51,783 nt of DNA from Bacteriovoracaceae bacterium (GCA_023137315.1 JAGLPP010000014.1:1-51783); one strand, 5' to 3'. Positions 21,223 to 42,556 are shown, counted from the stretch's first letter. The notes: generated from the letters alone by a model not told the origin. Translations and numbers: made by a program.

Positions 21223-21933
21223 TCAGCGACGAATAAAAAACCTGACTCCCAAAACACCAATCTCAAAAAGCAGGACAAGTGGTAACCATAATCCCAACAT
21301 GGTCAAAATATCAGGTGGAGTGAAAAAAGCTGAAAGAATCGCAAGTGCAACATAGATATGGGTTCTGATACCACTGAGTTTTTGTGGGGTAACTATTTTC
21401 AAAAGTCCAAGAATGAAAATAATATTGGGAAATTGAAAAACCATTCCCAGAAAGACAAGAATCTTTATTGAAAGACCGAGATAGTCCTTCATGCTCATCA
21501 TTGGCCCGACATCACCTACTCCAAATCCTACAAGCATTTTAAAAGTGATCGGAAAAACCACGAAATAACCAAAACACACTCCAAAGCAAAACAAAAGAAA
21601 ACCCGCCAGGATAAACGGCCTTATCACTTTTAATTCACGTGGAAGAAGTCCGGGACGTATAAAACCCCAAATCTCAAAGAACCAAAAAGGTGAGGAAAGA
21701 ATGACGGCCGACCAAAGAGCGACCTGGAAATATGATAGTACCTTGTCAAAAATACCAAGATAAACTATTTGACCATTATCCTTAAGGACAACTCTTAAAG
21801 GGGCAAGAAGAATTTCCGATAGCTGCGCCCCAAAGGTGTAACAAAGAACGAAGGATATAAACAGGATTATGGCAATTCGAATGAGTGTTTTTCTAAGATC
21901 GGTCAGATGTTTGGACAAGGACATTTTTTCCAT
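21223..21933 (-). CDS. tatC: Sec-independent protein translocase TatC
   Basis: 236 residues with six membrane spans. Family-typical features are visible: the N-terminal HLTDLRKTLIR, the FWFFEIWGFIRPGLLPRELK segment, and the FTPPDILTMLGLWLPLVLLFE stretch in the last two helices. It forms the receptor of the twin-arginine pathway for folded proteins. TatA/TatB are not in the window. It sits 7 bases after the E3-like reductase in the same operon, an unusual neighbour. A 50-codon gene at 38539 carries a Tat signal and is a possible client. Confidence 0.93.
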   Translation of the reverse strand: MEKMSLSKHLTDLRKTLIRIAIILFISFVLCYTFGAQLSEILLAPLRVVLKDNGQIVYLGIFDKVLSYFQVALWSAVILSSPFWFFEIWGFIRPGLLPRELKVIRPFILAGFLLFCFGVCFGYFVVFPITFKMLVGFGVGDVGPMMSMKDYLGLSIKILVFLGMVFQFPNIIFILGLLKIVTPQKLSGIRTHIYVALAILSAFFTPPDILTMLGLWLPLVLLFEIGVLGVRFFIRR

Positions 21934-31883: not shown

Positions 31884-33242
31884 TTACCTGCCCATTATTT
31901 CTATTTTAGGCTTTTTAACTGACTTCTTGAGACGTGGAAGTTTAAATGTAACCAATATACTCGCCAACTGTTTTGTCCTGTTTGAAAGTTCTTCAGCAGC
32001 AGAAGCAGATTCCTCAGCACTCGACGTATTTCTTTGTGTAACCTTGTCAATCTCTCCAAGAGAAAGAACCACTTGGGAAACCCCCTGGGACTGTTCATTT
32101 GATGCTGTAGCAATCTCTCCAACAAGATCGGTCGTCTTTGTTGAATTTTTCATAATTTCACCGAGCGACTCTGCAGTGCTGTCGGTTATATCCATTCCAA
32201 GTTTAACTTTTTTCTTCGAATCCTCAATCATGTCTGTTGTTTCTTTTGCCGCTTTCGCACTTCTTTCAGCAAGATTCTTAACCTCTTCTGCAACGACCGC
32301 AAACCCTTTTCCGTACTTCCCCGCTCTCGCCGCTTCCACCGCAGCATTCAACGCAAGAAGATTTGTCTGAAAGGCAATCTCATCAATAACCTTTATAATC
32401 TTCGAAATATCTTCACTTGATTCACTTATTCCAGTCATCGCCTTGACCATCTCCTCCATCTGCTCGTTTCCGATTTTTGAACTCTTTTGCATTTCGTCAC
32501 TCAAAATTTGTGCCTGTGACGCGTTCTCTGCGTTTCGCTTGATTTTGTCACCAATCTCATTCATTGAACTGGTTATCTCTTCCAAAGCAGATGCCTGTTC
32601 AGTTGCTCCCTGGGAAAGAGATTGACTTGCACTCGCAACTTGTCGACTATCGACATTCACCTCTTCAACAACATCGTTTACCTGATTCAATGTTTCTGCT
32701 AATTTTTTCACGGCAGAGTTGATATCATTACCCAGTTCCTTCATCGTTCCGCTATAATCCCCTTTTACCATCCCATTGAGATTTTTTTCAGACATTTTCT
32801 TTACAACATCAATAATCTCCTCCAAAGGACGAATAATTTCATGACACAATTTGTCCATAACTCTTGCCAGATCACCAAGTTCATCCTTTCTTTTAAGTGC
32901 AATCTGCGACACTGGAATGGAAAAATCACCACCCGCAATAAAATCAAGATGTGCAACGGCCCGCGATAACGGAAAATCCACTTGTGCCCCCAGTTTTCTG
33001 GAAACAAACCACGAAATTAAAAAGCCACATGCAAGCAACAGGATGGATGGCAAAAGCAAACTTATAAAAATCATTCCCACATCTATCAAGTCAACATTGA
33101 CTCCATTTTTGGCAAGGAGAGAGACGATTGAACTTCTGAGAACGATAGCAGTAACAAGTATCACAATTAGAGAGTAACCTACAAAGAAAAAACCAAGAAC
33201 AGCTCGTAACCTTGACTTTATCTTCAAATCCTCAATACCCAC
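31884..33242 (-). CDS. methyl-accepting chemotaxis protein without a large periplasmic domain
   Basis: 452 residues. Two membrane spans (~13-38 and ~55-78) are separated by a very short loop (~17 residues), so it cannot bind a ligand outside the membrane in the usual way. A HAMP domain follows, then the signalling domain with the conserved hairpin tip [17 protein letters not shown]. It may sense the energy state or membrane, or an intracellular partner. The GTG start has AGGGGGGAAC upstream. It is convergent with the HD-GYP gene. A candidate -35/-10 (TTGCCA, 16 bases, TACTAT) lies at 33293-33320. Confidence 0.92.
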
Positions 33243-33333: not shown

Positions 33334-33618
33334 TTAAAAAGTCTCAATATAAAATAGGGCATCCCTGTTTGAAAGTTTTCCCTCTTTTATTTTCCGTTTC
33401 AGAATATCCATCCTGACTTTTCTCATATAGGTTGGCACAGGGGTGGTTACCTTGGAATCCGGATCAACTGTTATTGTACTTTGTTTTTTTACTTCAAATT
33501 CAAATACTTTGGACAACTCCATGCCTGTCTGAATAATGATCAAGACAATAATAACCAAAAGCGCGGCCCTGAAAAACCGGTCGCGTTCTACAATTTTTTC
33601 TTCAAACACCGGTTGCAT
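33334..33618 (-). CDS. small single-span membrane protein, unknown
   Basis: 94 residues. A cytoplasmic N-terminus (acidic/basic), one membrane span near residues 17-33 (ALLVIIVLIIIQ) and a ~60-residue extracytoplasmic tail, Lys-rich, with TPVPTYMRKVRMD. No Cys and no recognised family. Its start overlaps the 3' end of the 1,149-residue redox protein by 31 bases, making it the last gene of the AmmeMemoRadiSam operon. It may be a small accessory subunit. The ribosome binding site is weak. Confidence 0.7.
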   Translation of the reverse strand: MQPVFEEKIVERDRFFRAALLVIIVLIIIQTGMELSKVFEFEVKKQSTITVDPDSKVTTPVPTYMRKVRMDILKRKIKEGKLSNRDALFYIETF

Positions 33619-36600
33619 TCCAAACAGTCCGTTTCCAAATTATTTTCAACTTTATAGGGACAAAACTTATATTTTTTACGCGGAAAAATCCACGACAATG
33701 GTTTAAAAAATGAAACAATCGCCAGGAAGGCACCAGTTGGACACAAATAGCGGCACCAAAAACGTGGAACAATAAATGACATCAAAAGTACGGCCATTGC
33801 AATATAAAGAGAAAGTCCGCCGGATCCAAAGCTGAAAATATGTGTCAATGGATCGAAGGAAAAAAGTTCACGAGATCCGGTAAGCGCAAAAGCGATCATG
33901 ACAGCAAAGAAAATTGCAAATTTTATTACACGCGCACGCTTGTGTAATTGCTTTTCTTCAACCGGTCTTGCCAATCCAAATTTTTCCAAAAATTCCTGAA
34001 GTGCTCCAAATGGACACAAATTACCGCAAAAGAAATTACCAAACAAAAATACAAGGAATGGGATCAGCCATACAAATAAAAATACAGGACTGCTCAGGGA
34101 AAAATTCATTCCTGAAAGAATTGCAATCTGGTCTGTGGAAAACTGCAGGTTATATATAACACCGCCAACGATTAAATTAACCCCAAGCCAGACAAGCCTT
34201 GGCACAGGACTGGTTATTTTCATGAGAACGACGGCAATACAAATCGCAAAAACAAACCAGGAATATTTTAAATAATCGATCGGAGGAGCAACAGATATAA
34301 TTTTTCTTTTTTGAGAAAAACTTTTAAATGAATACATCATTGTATTTTTTATGGCCTGTGATGTAACAGTGGCACCTGTTACCGCATCAACCATGCCAAT
34401 ATTTTGAATTTTTTTTCCAGCAAGTTTTTTAAACCATGAAAGGGTCTTTTTAAAATACCATGGGGTTTCCTGGTGATCCTTTACAAAATATGATTCCAAA
34501 ACATCTCTTTCGGAAATTTTCATTATAATGCTAATGGGGCCGCCATAACCCGGAACCTGTGGAGCATAATCGTTTGAAGAAATAACAAATGATTTTTCCC
34601 CGTTTTTTTCGTTGTGAACAACAAAAAAATCATCTTTTTGAACCAGATGTTGGGAAGGTTTGACTCCAAGTTGCCTGAGGTCCTCCTGTGTAATAGTGGA
34701 CAGGTCTGATTTTTCCTTTTCAAGCAAAAAACTGCGTACAAAAACGACCATAAATAAAATCCAGCAAAAAAGAAAACCTGTTCCAAGAAGCGATGATTTT
34801 CCAGACAGGCCCTTTTTTGGAAGAAATTTTAAAAGATTGGCAAATAACAAAAATACATAAATCGAAATAATAATAATGAAAGTGCCCTTTGTACCTATTA
34901 TCGGAATAAAAAACAATCCACCGAGAATTGAACCAAAGAGTGCCCCCAAATGATCCCATTTTTCCAGAAGGTTACCGGTTTGTGAGGTATCAAGCCCGGA
35001 AGAATTCATTAAAACTTCACATAATGGAAATACAAAACCGGTAATGGCCCCCAGGACAAAACACAGATTGGAATATTTAAGAAGTAAATTCGATGAATAA
35101 AATTGAATTAAAAGTGAAGCCATAACGAAAACAACAAATACGAAGACACAACCTCCAGTAGTTATACGAAACAACCCCTCATGACCGCTCTGTATATATC
35201 TCGAAAGAATTGCCCCACCGAGAAGTCCAATCATGAACAATGAAGTGAATAAACCGATATAATGAAAACCTGTACCATAATTGATTTGAAAATTTGTCAG
35301 GATAGTCAGAAAACCAAGCATGCTGCACAATCCTGCCCCGAAAACAATCAGTTTTGCCCTGAATCTTGTAAATTTTATGGCATCCGCGGATTTTTTTGAA
35401 TAGAAAGCGATGAATATCAATCCAATAAACAATGGAAACAAAACAGAATATAAATTCAAAAACCTGAATTTGTTCAGAAATTTTGTAAGAGGTGAATTAC
35501 TGTATTTCCCCAAAAGCAGCATGGAAAAAAAATGGCCCCTGGGTTTTTCCCTTGTGTTTATCAGATTTTTTGTTTTCCCGGGAAATTTCTCCCATGTGGA
35601 TGCTGTGAAGTCCATTCTGCTCTTCTCGAACATGGAATGAAAGGTTTTTGGCAATAAAATTTTTTCGTGATATGGAAGTCTTTTAAATCTTGTTTCCATC
35701 GTTGAAGCCGCAGTTGCAAGCCCCTTCCAATCTGAACTTATAATCCATGAATTGTCCCCTGGCTTTATGACATGATACTTAAAGACCGCCTCCAGTGTTT
35801 TGTAAATGGATGCACCCATTCTTGCCAATTCCTGTCCGGCATAATTGGAAGGCCCAGGGGCCGTTGTAAGAATAAACCCACGTTTTGTCAGATGAAATTT
35901 TATATCCTCAAAAAATTCTTTTGTGTAAAATCCATTATCACTTCCAGTAAGAGGAGGCCCTGCGAGATTCAAGACAGCATCAAATCCAACATCATTTTTC
36001 TTCAGATAACCCCAAAAATTATTCCTTATAATTGTAATTTTCGGAGATTTTTCCTTGAAAATTTTTTTAAAAACAAGATCATGATAATTAGTGTCCGAGG
36101 AATAAAGAAATATACTTTTTATTCCAGTCGTTTGTGCAATGTATTTAGCCAGGGACGCATTGGTTCCGATAACAAGAATATTTTCAATTTTGGGGTTTTG
36201 TCCAAAAATGGTTGCAGTGAGTTTTGAATGCATTTCTTTTTCAGGCCAGGTTTCCGCGATCCGGCCGTTTTGCACCACTATTTTTTGATTTCCGGACCCC
36301 TCTAGTACAAGATATTCGGCCATCGGAGTGGTTTTTCCGGTTATAAGCCTTGAGCCTGGAAGAATAAGATTTTTTTTGTAGGCATAAAAATCCCCCACAT
36401 TGATTGTAAAAAAAGCGACAATGATAAGAATCTCAAAGACAACAGAAAGAACAATTGAAAAGATTTTCGACCTTTTTATGCCACAGATCCCTACTGCCAG
36501 TACAAGCATATATGCGAATATAAGAAATATATGAAAGACATGAAGTTCCAGATATAAAAGCAGGGTGAAAATAATTCCTCCTGCAAAGGCACCCAATCCC

Positions 36601-37037
36601 TCCATTATGTATACCCACGCAACCGGTTTTTCAACATTCTGTTTTTTTATCATTTCCGAAATAAGTGGAAAGAAAAGTCCTGTTAAAAAACTCACTGGCG
36701 AATTGATTATAAAGGTTATGAGAGTGAGCTTGCCAAAGGGGAAAAGTTCCCAAGCCGAAATGCCGGCAAGTTTTCTGATATTCAGAATAAGTCCCCATTC
36801 AATGACAAGAAAGGGAATATAGAGCAGAAGAAAGGAAAAACTTTTCGGAGTTTCAATTTTTATAAATTTTCTTGAGGATGCGCCAATGGCTATCCATAAA
36901 GGCCATGATACAAAAAATGCTGAAATCCCCATCTCATTGCCATTAAATGCAACAAGATATTCCCGAAATAGAAGCGTCTGGCCCGATATGGAAAAATATC
37001 CATAAAGGAAAAGAACGATATTAATGGCAATATTCAC
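33588..37037 (-). CDS. multidomain membrane redox protein: spermidine-synthase-like + FMN-binding + 4Fe-4S (NosR/NapH-like)
   Basis: 1,149 residues. Order: membrane spans (~1-225); a degenerate spermidine-synthase-like Rossmann region (~230-470) in which the GGGDGG-type motif reads VIGTNASLAKY and the catalytic Asp pair is not seen; more spans (~520-750); an FMN-binding domain (~770-905) with the covalent-flavin motif DAVTGATVTS; and a C-terminal membrane part with CGNLCPFGA, CRYLCPTGA and a final CLECNRC, as in NosR/NapH. It should move electrons across the membrane. The GTG start overlaps the Memo/AMMECR1 stop as GTGA. Substrate unknown; the fusion in this locus is unusual. Confidence 0.88.
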   Translation of the reverse strand: MNIAINIVLFLYGYFSISGQTLLFREYLVAFNGNEMGISAFFVSWPLWIAIGASSRKFIKIETPKSFSFLLLYIPFLVIEWGLILNIRKLAGISAWELFPFGKLTLITFIINSPVSFLTGLFFPLISEMIKKQNVEKPVAWVYIMEGLGAFAGGIIFTLLLYLELHVFHIFLIFAYMLVLAVGICGIKRSKIFSIVLSVVFEILIIVAFFTINVGDFYAYKKNLILPGSRLITGKTTPMAEYLVLEGSGNQKIVVQNGRIAETWPEKEMHSKLTATIFGQNPKIENILVIGTNASLAKYIAQTTGIKSIFLYSSDTNYHDLVFKKIFKEKSPKITIIRNNFWGYLKKNDVGFDAVLNLAGPPLTGSDNGFYTKEFFEDIKFHLTKRGFILTTAPGPSNYAGQELARMGASIYKTLEAVFKYHVIKPGDNSWIISSDWKGLATAASTMETRFKRLPYHEKILLPKTFHSMFEKSRMDFTASTWEKFPGKTKNLINTREKPRGHFFSMLLLGKYSNSPLTKFLNKFRFLNLYSVLFPLFIGLIFIAFYSKKSADAIKFTRFRAKLIVFGAGLCSMLGFLTILTNFQINYGTGFHYIGLFTSLFMIGLLGGAILSRYIQSGHEGLFRITTGGCVFVFVVFVMASLLIQFYSSNLLLKYSNLCFVLGAITGFVFPLCEVLMNSSGLDTSQTGNLLEKWDHLGALFGSILGGLFFIPIIGTKGTFIIIISIYVFLLFANLLKFLPKKGLSGKSSLLGTGFLFCWILFMVVFVRSFLLEKEKSDLSTITQEDLRQLGVKPSQHLVQKDDFFVVHNEKNGEKSFVISSNDYAPQVPGYGGPISIIMKISERDVLESYFVKDHQETPWYFKKTLSWFKKLAGKKIQNIGMVDAVTGATVTSQAIKNTMMYSFKSFSQKRKIISVAPPIDYLKYSWFVFAICIAVVLMKITSPVPRLVWLGVNLIVGGVIYNLQFSTDQIAILSGMNFSLSSPVFLFVWLIPFLVFLFGNFFCGNLCPFGALQEFLEKFGLARPVEEKQLHKRARVIKFAIFFAVMIAFALTGSRELFSFDPLTHIFSFGSGGLSLYIAMAVLLMSFIVPRFWCRYLCPTGAFLAIVSFFKPLSWIFPRKKYKFCPYKVENNLETDCLECNRCLKKKL

Positions 37038-38551
37038 TTGATGGTTTTCCCCTCACCAAAGACTATGGCCTCGAAAACTTCAAACTTCGCGCCCTTTTTC
37101 CAATCGTTAACACCAAGACCGGCCTTCATTGAAAGATGACTGAGGGTTGTGGCCAGATCCCATCCTTGCTCGGGAGCGACCTGTGGAAGAAATACTGAAG
37201 CCCTTCCGTTTTTGCTCAGGAGTATTCCATGTTTTCCAACAACAATATCATTATATGAATCCACCTGTTTTGGTGGCGTGAGAATGGATATCTCTATATC
37301 AATATCATCGAGTTCGTCCGGTTTCACAGGGGCAAATCGTGAGTCATGGACAGCGGCTGAGATTGTCCTTTCCTTTACGACACTCAAAACCGATCTTGAA
37401 GGCATGATCTCCCCTATGCATCCCCTGAGCTGTCCTTTTTTATGAAGGGTGACAAATCCGCCTGCGATTTCATTCATGGAATCTGTTACAGTGATTTTTG
37501 CATCCGATTCCCCGACTTTCTTTCCTTCCCTTACAAATTTTTCCAAAACTGTTCGTGAAAGCTTTAAAAGATCCTTTTTTTCCTGTTCGCTAAAACTCAT
37601 TTTTTTTTCCTTTTCCCAGGCACCGGAAAAACCGAACGAAAGATAGCTTACGGAATTTGAATAGTCGCCAGTCATTTCACCGGAAGTACTGTATTTTAAA
37701 AGAGAGGTTTTTGTATTATTTGGCAAAATGGATAGAAGAAGAAAAATCGGCATGGCACCACAGATGGTGTCACCTGTCGTTTTCACATGTGCTAAAAAGG
37801 CATCTGCATTATTTTTTAATATTGAATTAGCTGACTCCATGTTTAGTTTTTCAAGGTTGGCCTTTACGTTTTCGGTGAATGGAAGATAACCGAAATTTCC
37901 GCCATAATGCGTAAAATCGGAGCTTACGACAATGAGAGTATCATCTGTTATCAATTGCTTTACGAAATTTGCAACTTCCACAAGCGATTTCTTATCAAAC
38001 TGTCCCATGATTATTGGAAGAATTTCAAAATCCCCCAGGACTTCCTTGATAAATGGGACTTCATTGTCCGTACTGTGCTCCTTTAGAAAAGGTGCATTGT
38101 TTTTAACGAAATATGGTGATTCTGCCAGCTTGTTTAAAAGTTTCAAATCAATTGGTATCGGACCAAAAACAGTTTTGTAAGCCTCGGCATCAGGAATGGC
38201 CATTTTATTATGAAGAGAATAATAATGGGAAGGCCCTATCACGATAACCCTTTTATATTTGTTTCCCTTGATTGAAGCAAAAGCGTAAGCAGCATTTTGC
38301 CCCGAATAGGCATAGCCTGCATGCGGGCAAATGAGGGCAATGACATCCTCGTTTTGTTTCACTCCAGTCTTTTTAATATAGTCTTGAATGTCTCCGGAAA
38401 GTTTTTTGTAATTTCCAGGATACCACATACCAACCTGTTCGACTCCAATCATTTTGCCCCCCCCCGTTTGGGATTTTTTGGATACATTTGCACGACATGC
38501 AGAAAACAAAAGCAGAAGAATGGCAATTGTAAAAAAATTTATCCGATCCAT
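37034..38551 (-). CDS. lipoprotein fusion of Memo (AmmeMemoRadiSam protein B) and AMMECR1 (protein A)
   Basis: 505 residues. The N-terminus carries a signal peptide with lipobox LLFSAC (Cys near residue 19), so the protein should be lipid-anchored outside the cytoplasmic membrane. Residues ~35-310 are a Memo domain (CPHAGYAYSG, GPSHYYS, EHSTDNEVPF, SSDFTHYG); the His and Cys expected to bind metal are present. Residues ~325-505 are an AMMECR1 domain with the conserved LRGCIGEI. These are usually separate, without signal peptides. The start ATG lies within the last codons of the 50-codon Tat gene. Function of the family is not established. Confidence 0.92.
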   Translation of the reverse strand: MDRINFFTIAILLLLFSACRANVSKKSQTGGGKMIGVEQVGMWYPGNYKKLSGDIQDYIKKTGVKQNEDVIALICPHAGYAYSGQNAAYAFASIKGNKYKRVIVIGPSHYYSLHNKMAIPDAEAYKTVFGPIPIDLKLLNKLAESPYFVKNNAPFLKEHSTDNEVPFIKEVLGDFEILPIIMGQFDKKSLVEVANFVKQLITDDTLIVVSSDFTHYGGNFGYLPFTENVKANLEKLNMESANSILKNNADAFLAHVKTTGDTICGAMPIFLLLSILPNNTKTSLLKYSTSGEMTGDYSNSVSYLSFGFSGAWEKEKKMSFSEQEKKDLLKLSRTVLEKFVREGKKVGESDAKITVTDSMNEIAGGFVTLHKKGQLRGCIGEIMPSRSVLSVVKERTISAAVHDSRFAPVKPDELDDIDIEISILTPPKQVDSYNDIVVGKHGILLSKNGRASVFLPQVAPEQGWDLATTLSHLSMKAGLGVNDWKKGAKFEVFEAIVFGEGKTIK

Positions 38552-38691
38552 TTGTGCTCTTTGTAAACATCCTTGATATAAAATGGTTTTATCCTTCTAT
38601 ATCCCTTGATTTTTTTTGCCAATACTCTTACAGGCATCAAAAAAATTGCACCTGTGGCAAAAATTCCCTTTATAAATTTTCTGCGATTCAT
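38539..38691 (-). CDS. Tat-signal micro-protein (50 residues) in the AmmeMemoRadiSam operon
   Basis: Reading 38691 to 38539 gives 50 residues. The N-terminus MNRRKFIKG carries a twin-arginine motif (consensus S/T-RR-x-F-L-K), then a hydrophobic stretch IFATGAIFLMPV, and a VLA cleavage site at residues 23-25. The mature peptide would be 25 residues, with 9 Lys/Arg and five aromatic residues (Y, F, Y, Y, W), no Cys. Its ATG overlaps the radical SAM stop by 4 bases (ATGA) and its stop overlaps the Memo/AMMECR1 start by 13 bases, so it is tightly coupled. It could be the substrate of the radical SAM enzyme, a cofactor carrier, or a remnant of a larger Tat protein. Confidence 0.7.
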   Translation of the reverse strand: MNRRKFIKGIFATGAIFLMPVRVLAKKIKGYRRIKPFYIKDVYKEHKWIG

Positions 38692-39671
38692 ATTCCCCAT
38701 ATTCCCTCAATCTTATAATCGCAATCCGGATGTCGTCCAGTCTCATCCAACAAATTTTTAATGACCTTATAACCGACTCGTTTAATCACCGTTTTTTTGC
38801 ATTTCGGACAAAAAGTGGTTTCACCGTCAGTTGTATGAATATTTCCAATATAGACATAATGAAGACCTTCCGCCATGGCGATATCACGAGCACGCATCAG
38901 GGTATCAGACGGAGTTGGTGGAAGATTTCTCATCTTGAATTGTGGAGAAAAGCGGGAAAAATGAAGTGGGGTTGATGCCCCCATGTTTTGCTTGATCCAT
39001 TTGGCGAGACTTCTCAGTTCGGTTTCCGTATCGTTCAAGGTGGGAATAACCAAATTTGTAACTTCGGTATGTACTCCCATTTTTTTAAATGTAATCAGAT
39101 TATCCAAAACAGGTTTCAACGTTGCCTTGCATACAGTCCGATAAAATTTATCGGACATTGACTTTAAATCAACATTGGCGGCATCGGAAACCCTTAACAG
39201 TTTTTCCAACGGTTTTTTGTTCAGATAGGCAGCTGTAACAAGTACGTTTTTAATATTATTTTTTCTGGCAAGCTTTGAGCTTTGAAGTGTATATTCGTAA
39301 TAAACCGATGGTTCGGTATAGGTATAGGCGATGGAAATACTTTTTGTCTTTATGGCAGAGGCAATCAGATCTTCGGGAGGTAACCTATACGCATCAATAT
39401 CCTCGGGATTGGCCTGCGAAATTTCCCAATTTTGACAGTTAAGACAATGAAGATTACATCCAGCAGTCGCAATGGACAGAATTTTACTTCCAGGAATAAA
39501 GTGAAAAAGTGGTTTTTTTTCAACAGGGTCCACATGAACCGCCACCGGATGCCCGAAAGTCACGGCCTTGAGTTTCCCATCCACATTGATGCGTATCCGA
39601 CAATCACCACTTTCGCCAGGGGCAATCCTGCATTCTTTTGGACAGAGTTTACATTGCAAAGTCGGCTTCAT
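38688..39671 (-). CDS. amrS: AmmeMemoRadiSam system radical SAM enzyme
   Basis: 327 residues, full length for the family. The N-terminal Cys-rich CKLCPKECRIAPG...GDCRIR segment, the radical SAM motif GCNLHCLNCQNWEISQ and a C-terminal zinc-ribbon-like CPKC...CDY segment are all present. It is the first gene of the operon. The AmmeMemoRadiSam trio co-occurs across many prokaryotes but has no accepted reaction; I use the name only for family membership. The ATG lacks a Shine-Dalgarno. GTTACA, 17 bases, TACTAT ends 6 bases before it, so a leaderless transcript is possible. Confidence 0.9.
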   Translation of the reverse strand: MKPTLQCKLCPKECRIAPGESGDCRIRINVDGKLKAVTFGHPVAVHVDPVEKKPLFHFIPGSKILSIATAGCNLHCLNCQNWEISQANPEDIDAYRLPPEDLIASAIKTKSISIAYTYTEPSVYYEYTLQSSKLARKNNIKNVLVTAAYLNKKPLEKLLRVSDAANVDLKSMSDKFYRTVCKATLKPVLDNLITFKKMGVHTEVTNLVIPTLNDTETELRSLAKWIKQNMGASTPLHFSRFSPQFKMRNLPPTPSDTLMRARDIAMAEGLHYVYIGNIHTTDGETTFCPKCKKTVIKRVGYKVIKNLLDETGRHPDCDYKIEGIWGI

Positions 39672-39823: not shown

Positions 39824-40354
39824 ATGAAGTTAATCTCGTTTTTTCTAATGATCACAGCACTATTTATTATCATGCAACCTTCGACATTTGCCGCCAAAAA
39901 GTGTGACGCAAAAATAGCCGAAGAGTATGTTAACAAAGCTTGTGCAATCGTAAATGCAAATCCAGACCCCAAGGTTTTCATTCCAAAAGTGGAAGCATTA
40001 ACCTTCTGTGACGGTAACTATGTCTGGGTTCAAACCAGAAAAAAGGACACTTATCAGATTGTCGCCCACAGAGTCAGTCCGGCACTAAAAAAGAAAAAAG
40101 AATGGCTACCAAAAGTTATGAGCAAATTAAAACTCTTTGAACTGCTTAATGACGCCGGACTCGATTCTTCCGGCAAGAAGTGGGTTGCGTATAAATGGAA
40201 GAGTAAGGATGATCTTTTAAATGCCACCAAAAAGTTGTCATTACTGAAAAAATGTAACAATGATTGGGCCGCAGGTTCCGGAATCTGGCTTAAAAACTGC
40301 GCAGGTTGTCCGAAGATTGATTACGGTAAAAAATATATCGTGGAAAAAAAGTAG
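39824..40354 (+). CDS. stand-alone periplasmic Cache-domain protein
   Basis: 176 residues with a signal peptide ending near FAA (residue 23). The mature part looks like a single Cache domain (sCache): a helix, then AIVNANPDPKVF, FCDGNYVWVQTRK and QIVAHRVSP. It contains five Cys in the mature chain, some likely disulfide-bonded. GGGAG lies before the ATG. It is followed after 27 bases by a chemoreceptor with its own Cache region, so it may deliver a ligand to that receptor. The family assignment is moderate. Confidence 0.7.
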   Translation: MKLISFFLMITALFIIMQPSTFAAKKCDAKIAEEYVNKACAIVNANPDPKVFIPKVEALTFCDGNYVWVQTRKKDTYQIVAHRVSPALKKKKEWLPKVMSKLKLFELLNDAGLDSSGKKWVAYKWKSKDDLLNATKKLSLLKKCNNDWAAGSGIWLKNCAGCPKIDYGKKYIVEKK

Positions 40355-40381: not shown

Positions 40382-42556
40382 ATGTCCGATTTGAATATTT
40401 TTAGCAAGCTAAGTCTTAAAAACAAGTTATTCTTTCTGGTGGCGGCGGTATCGCTTGTATGTATAACGCTAATATCGTCAATCTCGTATTACAAATCAAA
40501 GCAGGCACTTTTGGATATATCCATCAATCAATTGATTTCAACACGTGAGATAACCAAAAAGAGAATTGTTGAAAATTTTAGCAGTATTAATATTCTCGGG
40601 CACAGGGTTGCAACCAACCTGTTTCTCGAATCCATGTATATTGGTTCAAGCAAGGTTTTTTTATCAGCTAATTTAAAGGTGGGGAAAGATGAAGAAGCTT
40701 TCACCGCACCTTATGAAGGTCTGATCAGTAAATACGGTAAAAACATCAAGGGTATTGCCTCCGATTTTAACTTTGAAAATATTTTTCTGGTTAATAGTCA
40801 GGGGCAAATCCTTATGAGTACCGAAACCAGGGAAAATAACAACTTTTTGGGAAAAAATTTAAAGAATGGAGTTTATAAAAACACACTTCTTGCAAACTGC
40901 TTTAATCAGACAATTGAATCAACTGAAACAAAAATCTTTTTTAGCGGATATGAATATAATGATGATCTTCAAAAAACAGTGGCCTTTGTGTGCAGAAAGC
41001 ATTTTGCATCAATGAATTACGACGAGGAGTTCATCGATAAAGGTGCCATTCTGGGTATAACGATAGCACAGATAGATATTGACCGTATAAACGGAATTAC
41101 AACCGAAAGAAGCGGCATGGGGGAAACCGGACAGTCCTATCTTGCCGGCCCTGATTATAAGCTGAGATCTGATTTTTTTCTGGAAAAAAATAAATTTAAT
41201 GTAAATTACTTTTTCAAGGATAATCAACAGATTTCATCGGACAGTTTAAAAAGAGCACTGGCCGGGGAAACAGGAGAACTCTTTATAACCGATCCCACAG
41301 GCAACAATGTATTGAGTGCATACACTTCCATAAACGTACTCGGAAAAAAATGGGCCATCATTTGTGAAAAGAGAATGTCCGAAATTCTGGAACCGGTTAA
41401 TGACATGTTGGTAATTATAACGGTGGTGTCAGTCGTGGTTCTTATTGGCTCAATAGTTGTCTCCATATTTGTAGGATACACATTCACCAGACCAATTGTG
41501 GAAGTTCTCAACGAGAGCGAAAAATTAACAAAGGCCACACAAAACGGTGAACTTCATATTCGCGGAGATGATAAAAAGATAAATTGGGAATTTCGACCGA
41601 TTATAACCGGTTTCAACAGTATTCTGGATGAAGTGGTAAAGCCAATCAATGAAGCCACCTCTGTCATCACAAAAATGTCCAATGGAGATTTTCGCAACAA
41701 GATGTTGGGCGAATATAAAGGGGAAAATGCCACACTAAAAATTTCATTGAACAATACACTGGATGCAATTAACAAGGCTTTGAACCAGGTATCAATTGAC
41801 TCTCAAAAAACCAAACATGATTCAAAAATATTGGCCGATATTAGTGGAACAATTTCAAATAGTATTACGCGATTGGCAAGTTCCCTACAGGAGATTTCAA
41901 GTGCAATGAATGAGATCGGAGGCCAGACCAAGAAAAATGCTGAAGACTCAAATGAGGCAAAGGAACTTAGTGCGCAGACCTTGAATTGTGCTGAAGATGG
42001 AAATCGCTATATGGGGGAAGTTGTTTTGGCCATGCAGGATATTAATAAATCCGGAGAGAGCATATCCAAGATTATCAAGGTTATCGATGAAATTGCCTTT
42101 CAAACAAATCTGCTGGCCTTGAATGCAGCAGTCGAGGCAGCCAGGGCCGGGAAACATGGTAAAGGTTTTGCGGTGGTCGCTGACGAGGTCAGAAATCTGG
42201 CCGAAAGAAGTGCTACTGCAGCCAAGCAAACCACGGACATTATTCAGGACTCAATTAAAAAAACCGAGCATGGAACAACTATTGTCGAAAGTACTTCGAA
42301 GGCCTTGGTAGAAATTAATCAAAAGGTGACCCAGGTTGCGGAATTTACATGTAATATCAACGATTCTTCCGTCAAGCAAAATGCAAGTATATCCCAGGTG
42401 GTCGCAACCTTGTCAGAAGTTGATGAGAACAGCCAGAATGACACTGCAACCATGGAAGAACTGGCATCGACTTCAAGAGAGTTATCCGATCAGGCAAGAA
42501 ATCTGGCAACAGTTGTTTCACAGTTCAAGCTGTTGAAGTTAGATCAAAAATCATAA
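40382..42556 (+). CDS. methyl-accepting chemotaxis protein with double-Cache-like sensor
   Basis: 724 residues. First membrane span ~17-37, a large periplasmic region to ~335 with Cache-type elements ([49 protein letters not shown]), a second span ~340-365, a HAMP domain, and the cytoplasmic signalling coiled coil with the conserved [17 protein letters not shown] tip. Signal input is probably a small metabolite. The upstream Cache protein is likely in the same transcript. It has the same tip as the short chemoreceptor at 31884, so both should work through the same CheA/CheW. Confidence 0.93.

Follow-up and report, generated by a model that had tools for sequence, protein, structure and literature searches.

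An AmmeMemoRadiSam gene set with predicted extracytoplasmic function and a putative detached Tat signal in a microprotein

Introduction

Do five overlapping genes around a radical SAM enzyme in a Bacteriovoracaceae bacterium form one system, and on which side of the membrane would the enzyme work? Because their chemistry depends on SAM, on Fe-S assembly, and on strong reductants, radical SAM enzymes are regarded as cytoplasmic. Memo, AMMECR1, and a radical SAM enzyme are a named association in the families TIGR04335-04337 (AmmeMemoRadiSam), for which Burroughs 2019, cited in PMC7159879, is reportedly the key Memo-AMMECR1 survey. The human homologues of Memo and AMMECR1 are disease-linked, and their function is not agreed upon.

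We analyzed a stretch of 51,783 nucleotides (GCA_023137315.1 JAGLPP010000014.1:1-51783), called the window below. An earlier note made from the sequence alone had read the genes as one envelope pathway with a lipid-anchored Memo/AMMECR1 protein, an electron path across the membrane, cytoplasmic radical chemistry, and a peptide as substrate or carrier.

Results

Organization of the gene run

An ORF check of the window identified five overlapping ORFs on the minus strand between 33334 and 39671. The features are as follows.

38688..39671, minus strand: radical SAM enzyme (AmmeMemoRadiSam rS family); TIGR04337 match of 373 bits, CNLHCLNC cluster motif, alignment
38539..38691 (alternative start 38700), minus strand: Tat microprotein, MNRRKFIKGIFATGAIFLMP...KEHKWIG*; RRKFIK and hydrophobic stretch, ATGA overlap
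37034..38551, minus strand: fused Memo and AMMECR1 lipoprotein; LLLFSAC lipobox, domain matches, MEMO1 metal ligands H49, H81, and C244
33588..37037, minus strand: multidomain membrane redox protein, 1149 aa; domain matches, topology
35454..36398, minus strand: its spermidine-synthase-like domain (aa 214-528), predicted extracytoplasmic; PRK03612 and thermospermine synthase matches, topology, 45 homologues
34341..34550, minus strand: its FMN_bind domain (aa 830-899), predicted extracytoplasmic; flavinylation motif DAVTGATVTS, topology, ApbE in the genome
33672..34100, minus strand: its NapH/NosR-like Fe-S membrane domain (aa 980-1122); domain matches
33334..33618, minus strand: small single-TM protein (gene 5); counterpart of the fused C-terminal extension of the redox protein of relatives
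33337..33375, minus strand: C-terminal tail of the small single-TM protein, LSNRDALFYIETF; likeness to the N-terminal segment of fused and cytosolic radical SAM enzymes, PSSM permutation p = 0.025
21280..21912, minus strand, elsewhere in the window: TatC; Tat translocase in the host

All ORFs and junctions were found as the earlier note had described them: ATGA between the enzyme and microprotein genes, a 13-nt overlap between microprotein and Memo, GTGA between Memo and the redox protein, and a 31-nt overlap between the redox and small proteins. The microprotein comprises 50-53 aa, depending on the start chosen (38691 or 38700). The microprotein of relatives starts at an ATG that overlaps the stop codon of the enzyme gene; thus, 38691 (50 aa, MNRRKFIKG...) is the likelier start in the window. 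In the subclade of the window, the enzyme and microprotein genes mostly overlap by 4 or 10 nt, which suggests translational coupling. In promoter and terminator scans, the matches scored no better than shuffled sequence.

A methyl-accepting chemotaxis protein gene (31884-33242) comes after the run at a distance of about 90 bp and has the same orientation. On the other side, a divergent gene (39824-40354, plus strand) with a weak Cache-domain match below the cut-off adjoins a chemotaxis-receptor-like gene (40382-42556).

Protein families and recurrence of the set

The enzyme matched TIGR04337 with 373 bits against a cut-off of 220, and the same gene run contained matches to TIGR04336 (Memo, 206 bits against 26) and TIGR04335 (AMMECR1, 156 against 99). 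Its CNLHCLNC sequence is the CX3CX2C motif of the radical SAM superfamily, and the accompanying partial TIM barrel was taken from the fold of a relative in which signal and enzyme are fused. The Memo domain conserves H49, H81, and C244, the iron/copper ligands of MEMO1 (PMC11081632). In the redox protein, FMN_bind and Fer4_5 both exceeded their cut-offs, and a membrane spermidine-synthase region of the PRK03612 type was recognized; no family matched the microprotein or the small TM protein in the domain search. Compared with AmmeMemoRadiSam as known from these three families, Memo and AMMECR1 are here fused and lipid-anchored, the export signal of the enzyme is predicted to act in trans, and two membrane partners are added.

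A genome scan yielded 80 loci from many phyla, the best 80 of more than 590 matches, leaning to the exported branch. That the genes should stay together in relatives had been set beforehand as a test of the proposal, and they do so: the set recurs in Verrucomicrobia, Hydrogenedentota, Planctomycetes, and Lentisphaerota, often in the order of the window (enzyme, microprotein, Memo-AMMECR1, redox protein). The same order in other phyla indicates that the gene set is not due to chance. Among the window's own kin, the redox protein is patchy (8/59 genomes). Another 14 whole genomes were checked, the majority selected for having these genes apart: 13 encode a Memo or AMMECR1 protein, and all 14 encode a homologue of the redox or spermidine-synthase-like type.

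The enzyme N-terminus and the Tat microprotein

Intact exported enzymes carry a signal, then an L-x-x-E-A-x-F-Y segment, then a C-x-L-C-P-x-x-C motif. In the alignment, the window enzyme begins abruptly at MKPTLQCKLCP and has no EAxFY segment, unlike the fused and cytosolic enzymes related to it, and 35 relatives likewise start directly at the C-x-L-C-P-x-x-C motif. The enzyme itself bears an N-terminal Tat signal in 25 and a Sec-type signal in 17 of 94 relatives. The genome of the window also encodes two cytosolic-type paralogues of the enzyme; the cytosolic paralogues checked, these two included, differ in being without such partners and have intact N-termini as a rule.

Members with a Sec-type instead of a Tat signal include L081, L082, L083, L084, L090, L092, L113, L115, L123, and L125 (Omnitrophota, Endomicrobia); in these, Fe-S clusters would have to be inserted outside the cytoplasm, or the signal would have to serve as an N-terminal membrane anchor. 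Two Tat-fused enzymes of Chloroflexi (L102:3108-4475 and L110:6930-8234) have an extra CxxCH...CHxPHTG insert between signal and core, possibly a haem or metal site. CxxCH motifs were rejected as evidence of export, as they lie mostly in the C-terminal Cys pairs of the enzymes and are present in cytosolic forms too. No multihaem cytochrome partner was found within 5 kb of any locus.

A small Tat-signal protein was encoded just downstream of 34/34 testable enzymes with a missing N-terminus and beside 0/56 enzymes with an intact one. Thirty-two of these microproteins were found by script or reading, and two, with KR instead of RR, by reading. Two loci at contig ends, one masked short enzyme, and one cytosolic paralogue were left out, and a match at L126 was counted as false, being without Tat character. 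A Fisher test of the association gave 1e-25, uncorrected for relatedness; the enzyme-core tree needs at least three changes of state, so the independent events behind it are few. Under midpoint rooting, the cytosolic forms branch at the base of this tree with the fused exported forms inside them, and the split forms appear among the latter as two main groups plus L076.

The window microprotein, MNRRKFIKGIFATGAIFLMP, has the twin-arginine pattern RRxFxK with a hydrophobic stretch, and TatC is encoded in the window. Its C-terminal WxG is common to 18 relatives, and this class has a conserved tail, YPGxVxPLxxxxVxxPGKWxG. We searched for the EAxFY segment using a PSSM built from 46 intact enzymes, with each sequence compared against its own shuffled copies. 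Microproteins of the LAG type carry an EAxFY-type segment at the C-terminus (p < 0.05 in 11/13, combined 4e-19; for example, GLREALFYHSDDGLAG), whereas 0/19 of the WxG type, the class of the window, resembled the enzyme segment. Redox-protein tails, or the small TM protein in their place, also carry it (p < 0.05 in 11/16, combined 5e-17); examples are SNKEALFYKKLED in L068 and SNRDALFYIETF in the window (p = 0.025). Control C-termini showed no such segment in the same test.

AlphaFold folded the EAxFY segment of a fused relative (L105) within the enzyme with a pLDDT of 97, and a disordered linker separated the segment from the Tat helix. In a tethered read-through model of the L120 enzyme with its LAG-type microprotein, the microprotein was not confidently placed (pLDDT of about 55-60, with no alignment for that part); microproteins were left out of the alignment for structure jobs because MAFFT misaligned them as separate rows.

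What is a single polypeptide in relatives (signal, segment, core) thus appears to be shared out among three genes here. We concluded that the microprotein is the predicted detached Tat signal, or escort, of the enzyme; for the WxG type, this putative role is deduced from its position, from the coupling, and from the analogous LAG microproteins.

The microprotein could instead be the substrate of the enzyme: a ribosomal peptide modified in the cytoplasm at its C-terminal WxG or LAG (for example, glycyl-type) and exported by Tat to the Memo-AMMECR1 lipoprotein. The solved fold closest to the model of the fused relative is the pyruvate formate-lyase activating enzyme (3cb8, E 3e-15) with its peptide substrate bound, and the closest family scores besides TIGR04337 are glycyl-radical activases. 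The C-terminal Gly of the microprotein is conserved in 32/34, and the tail conserved in the WxG class also fits a substrate. However, enzymes of sister clades bear the Tat or Sec signal themselves and have no microprotein beside them, its presence matches the loss of the enzyme N-terminus exactly, and LAG-type microproteins hold a structural segment of the enzyme itself, which also recurs in the tails of the membrane partner that are predicted to lie outside. On these grounds we regard the substrate reading as unlikely, and cytoplasmic radical chemistry with a peptide substrate or carrier, as the earlier note had it, has become less likely. Among the listed neighbour genes of the loci, none was a glycyl radical enzyme. 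The fold does make a protein or peptide plausible as the target of the enzyme, which differs from the pyruvate formate-lyase activating enzyme in an extra four-Cys N-terminal motif and a C-terminal Cys-pair region.

Membrane partners and the signal-bearing Memo-AMMECR1 protein

The mean layout of the membrane protein over 45 homologues is seven TM segments, the spermidine-synthase-like domain, eight TM segments, FMN_bind, and the NapH-like part. The clear alternation of positive charge over the short loops predicts an inner N-terminus and places the two globular domains on the outer side. Three positive residues precede the TM segment of the small protein, which would place its EAxFY-type tail outside. 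FMN_bind with its flavinylation motif, the PF12801 membrane domain, and ApbE in the genome characterize the protein as a NapH-like flavinylated system.

The SAM-fold motifs of the spermidine-synthase-like domain (GGG and VELDP) are kept in most relatives, and the window domain is degenerate at SAM-binding positions, including the GxG motif. The catalytic Asp of spermidine synthase sits in the D-x-x-D-P region, and this position is mostly occupied by Asn or another residue in the family and by Asn in the window. A plain spermidine synthase (polyamine aminopropyltransferase) was rejected, as the match reached 79 bits against an equivalog cut-off of 472 and the catalytic Asp is absent in the window. 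A membrane spermidine-synthase-like gene was found near 43/78 exported and 0/14 cytosolic enzymes (p = 6e-5). In the relative G024, the redox module and a methyl-accepting chemotaxis receptor form one 1994-aa protein (L015:6473-12457, plus strand), and genes resembling ResB/CcsA of cytochrome c biogenesis follow.

An ordinary AmmeMemoRadiSam set might merely lie beside an unrelated flavinylated NapH-like respiratory module. Such FMN modules pair with many oxidoreductases (PMC8238504), and the genes are on different contigs in some relatives. This reading is very improbable to us, given the order shared across phyla, the co-occurrence in genomes where the genes lie apart, the EAxFY motif common to both parts, and the FMN module near 18/36 split enzymes but 1/56 others.

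The Memo/AMMECR1 protein of the window bears a signal, and in genomes with a split enzyme where the Memo/AMMECR1 genes lie elsewhere, the best Memo/AMMECR1 proteins have N-terminal signal-like sequences. The cytosolic-type paralogues at L143 and L144 are without such a sequence. At L142 (G065:C32:69628-71501), Memo and AMMECR1 are separate neighbouring genes, each with a signal-like N-terminus.

In another reading, the microprotein and the fused signals would serve to anchor the enzyme in the membrane, keeping it on the cytoplasmic side beside the redox protein, and only Memo-AMMECR1 would be exported. Hydrophobic stretches could serve as anchors, and in the cytoplasm the problem of SAM and Fe-S supply would be avoided. 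Nevertheless, fused and split forms alike show the twin-arginine consensus RRxFLK, and topology prediction places the FMN domain, the spermidine-synthase-like domain, and the EAxFY tail outside. Together with the signal peptides on Memo and AMMECR1 in the split genomes examined, this makes the anchor reading quite improbable.

Discussion

We consider it fairly probable that the five genes constitute an extracytoplasmic AmmeMemoRadiSam system whose export signal is a separate microprotein, with export being predicted. The proposals of one envelope pathway, a lipid-anchored Memo/AMMECR1 protein, and an electron path across the membrane gained support.

In this system, the radical SAM enzyme would fold and take up its Fe-S clusters in the cytoplasm, and would leave as a folded protein via Tat with the signal on the separate microprotein (hitchhiker export). 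Outside, it may dock on the membrane by the EAxFY-type tail of gene 5, which in relatives is the tail of the redox protein. Electrons to reduce the cluster of the enzyme would pass outward through the NapH-like Fe-S/FMN module. The extracytoplasmic spermidine-synthase-like domain might bind or hand over SAM or its products, which is the most speculative step. The exported enzyme would then work with the lipid-anchored, metal-binding Memo-AMMECR1 protein. We infer export of the enzyme, docking in trans, and the supply of electrons and SAM; electrons probably come from the FMN/NapH part, and a role of the spermidine-synthase-like domain in handling SAM is possible. The scheme is consistent with the TatC and ApbE genes of the host. 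Points that weigh against it are the Sec-type signals of some relatives, with the problem of Fe-S insertion outside that they pose, the dissimilarity of WxG microproteins to the enzyme N-terminus, the low-confidence L120 model, and the degenerate SAM-binding positions of the window domain.

Parts of this scheme have known counterparts. Other Tat substrates, such as hydrogenases and formate dehydrogenases, are established cases of hitchhiker export, in which an untagged Fe-S protein adjoins a partner with the Tat signal (PMC10924467). Here, in contrast, the partner is a microprotein of 50-80 aa that extends hardly beyond the signal and, in one subclade, contains a piece of the enzyme. NapH-like flavinylated electron transfer similarly combines an outside FMN_bind domain (predicted here), a NapH-like Fe-S membrane domain, and ApbE in the genome (PMC8238504), but in our case the module forms one protein with a spermidine-synthase-like part of 15 TM segments, and it is paired with a radical SAM enzyme. 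The main text of that survey does not mention a radical SAM enzyme as a NapH/FMN partner (PMC8238504).

The view that no system of this composition had been described held in that a search of open-access literature yielded no match, while the Memo-AMMECR1-radical SAM association itself was known. The exported variant is without an earlier description in the open-access literature searched, although priority is not certain. Neither an exported radical SAM enzyme nor a periplasmic SAM pool turned up in that literature, which also weighs against the scheme, and to our knowledge none is known.

A broader proposal extends extracytoplasmic radical SAM chemistry to many bacterial phyla: the enzyme would be exported, in some lineages with its split-off Tat signal as an escorting microprotein, would receive low-potential electrons from a flavinylated NapH-like module and SAM from a membrane spermidine-synthase-like protein, and would act with exported Memo and AMMECR1. 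We regard this proposal as finely balanced, leaning slightly to the doubtful side. If it is true, SAM and strongly reducing electrons would have to be delivered across the membrane in the exported branch, and candidates for both tasks are found among the genes of the set. A Tat signal with a microprotein gene of its own would be missed by signal-peptide surveys of long proteins. The set would also provide a bacterial setting with defined partners in which the function of Memo and AMMECR1 may be found.
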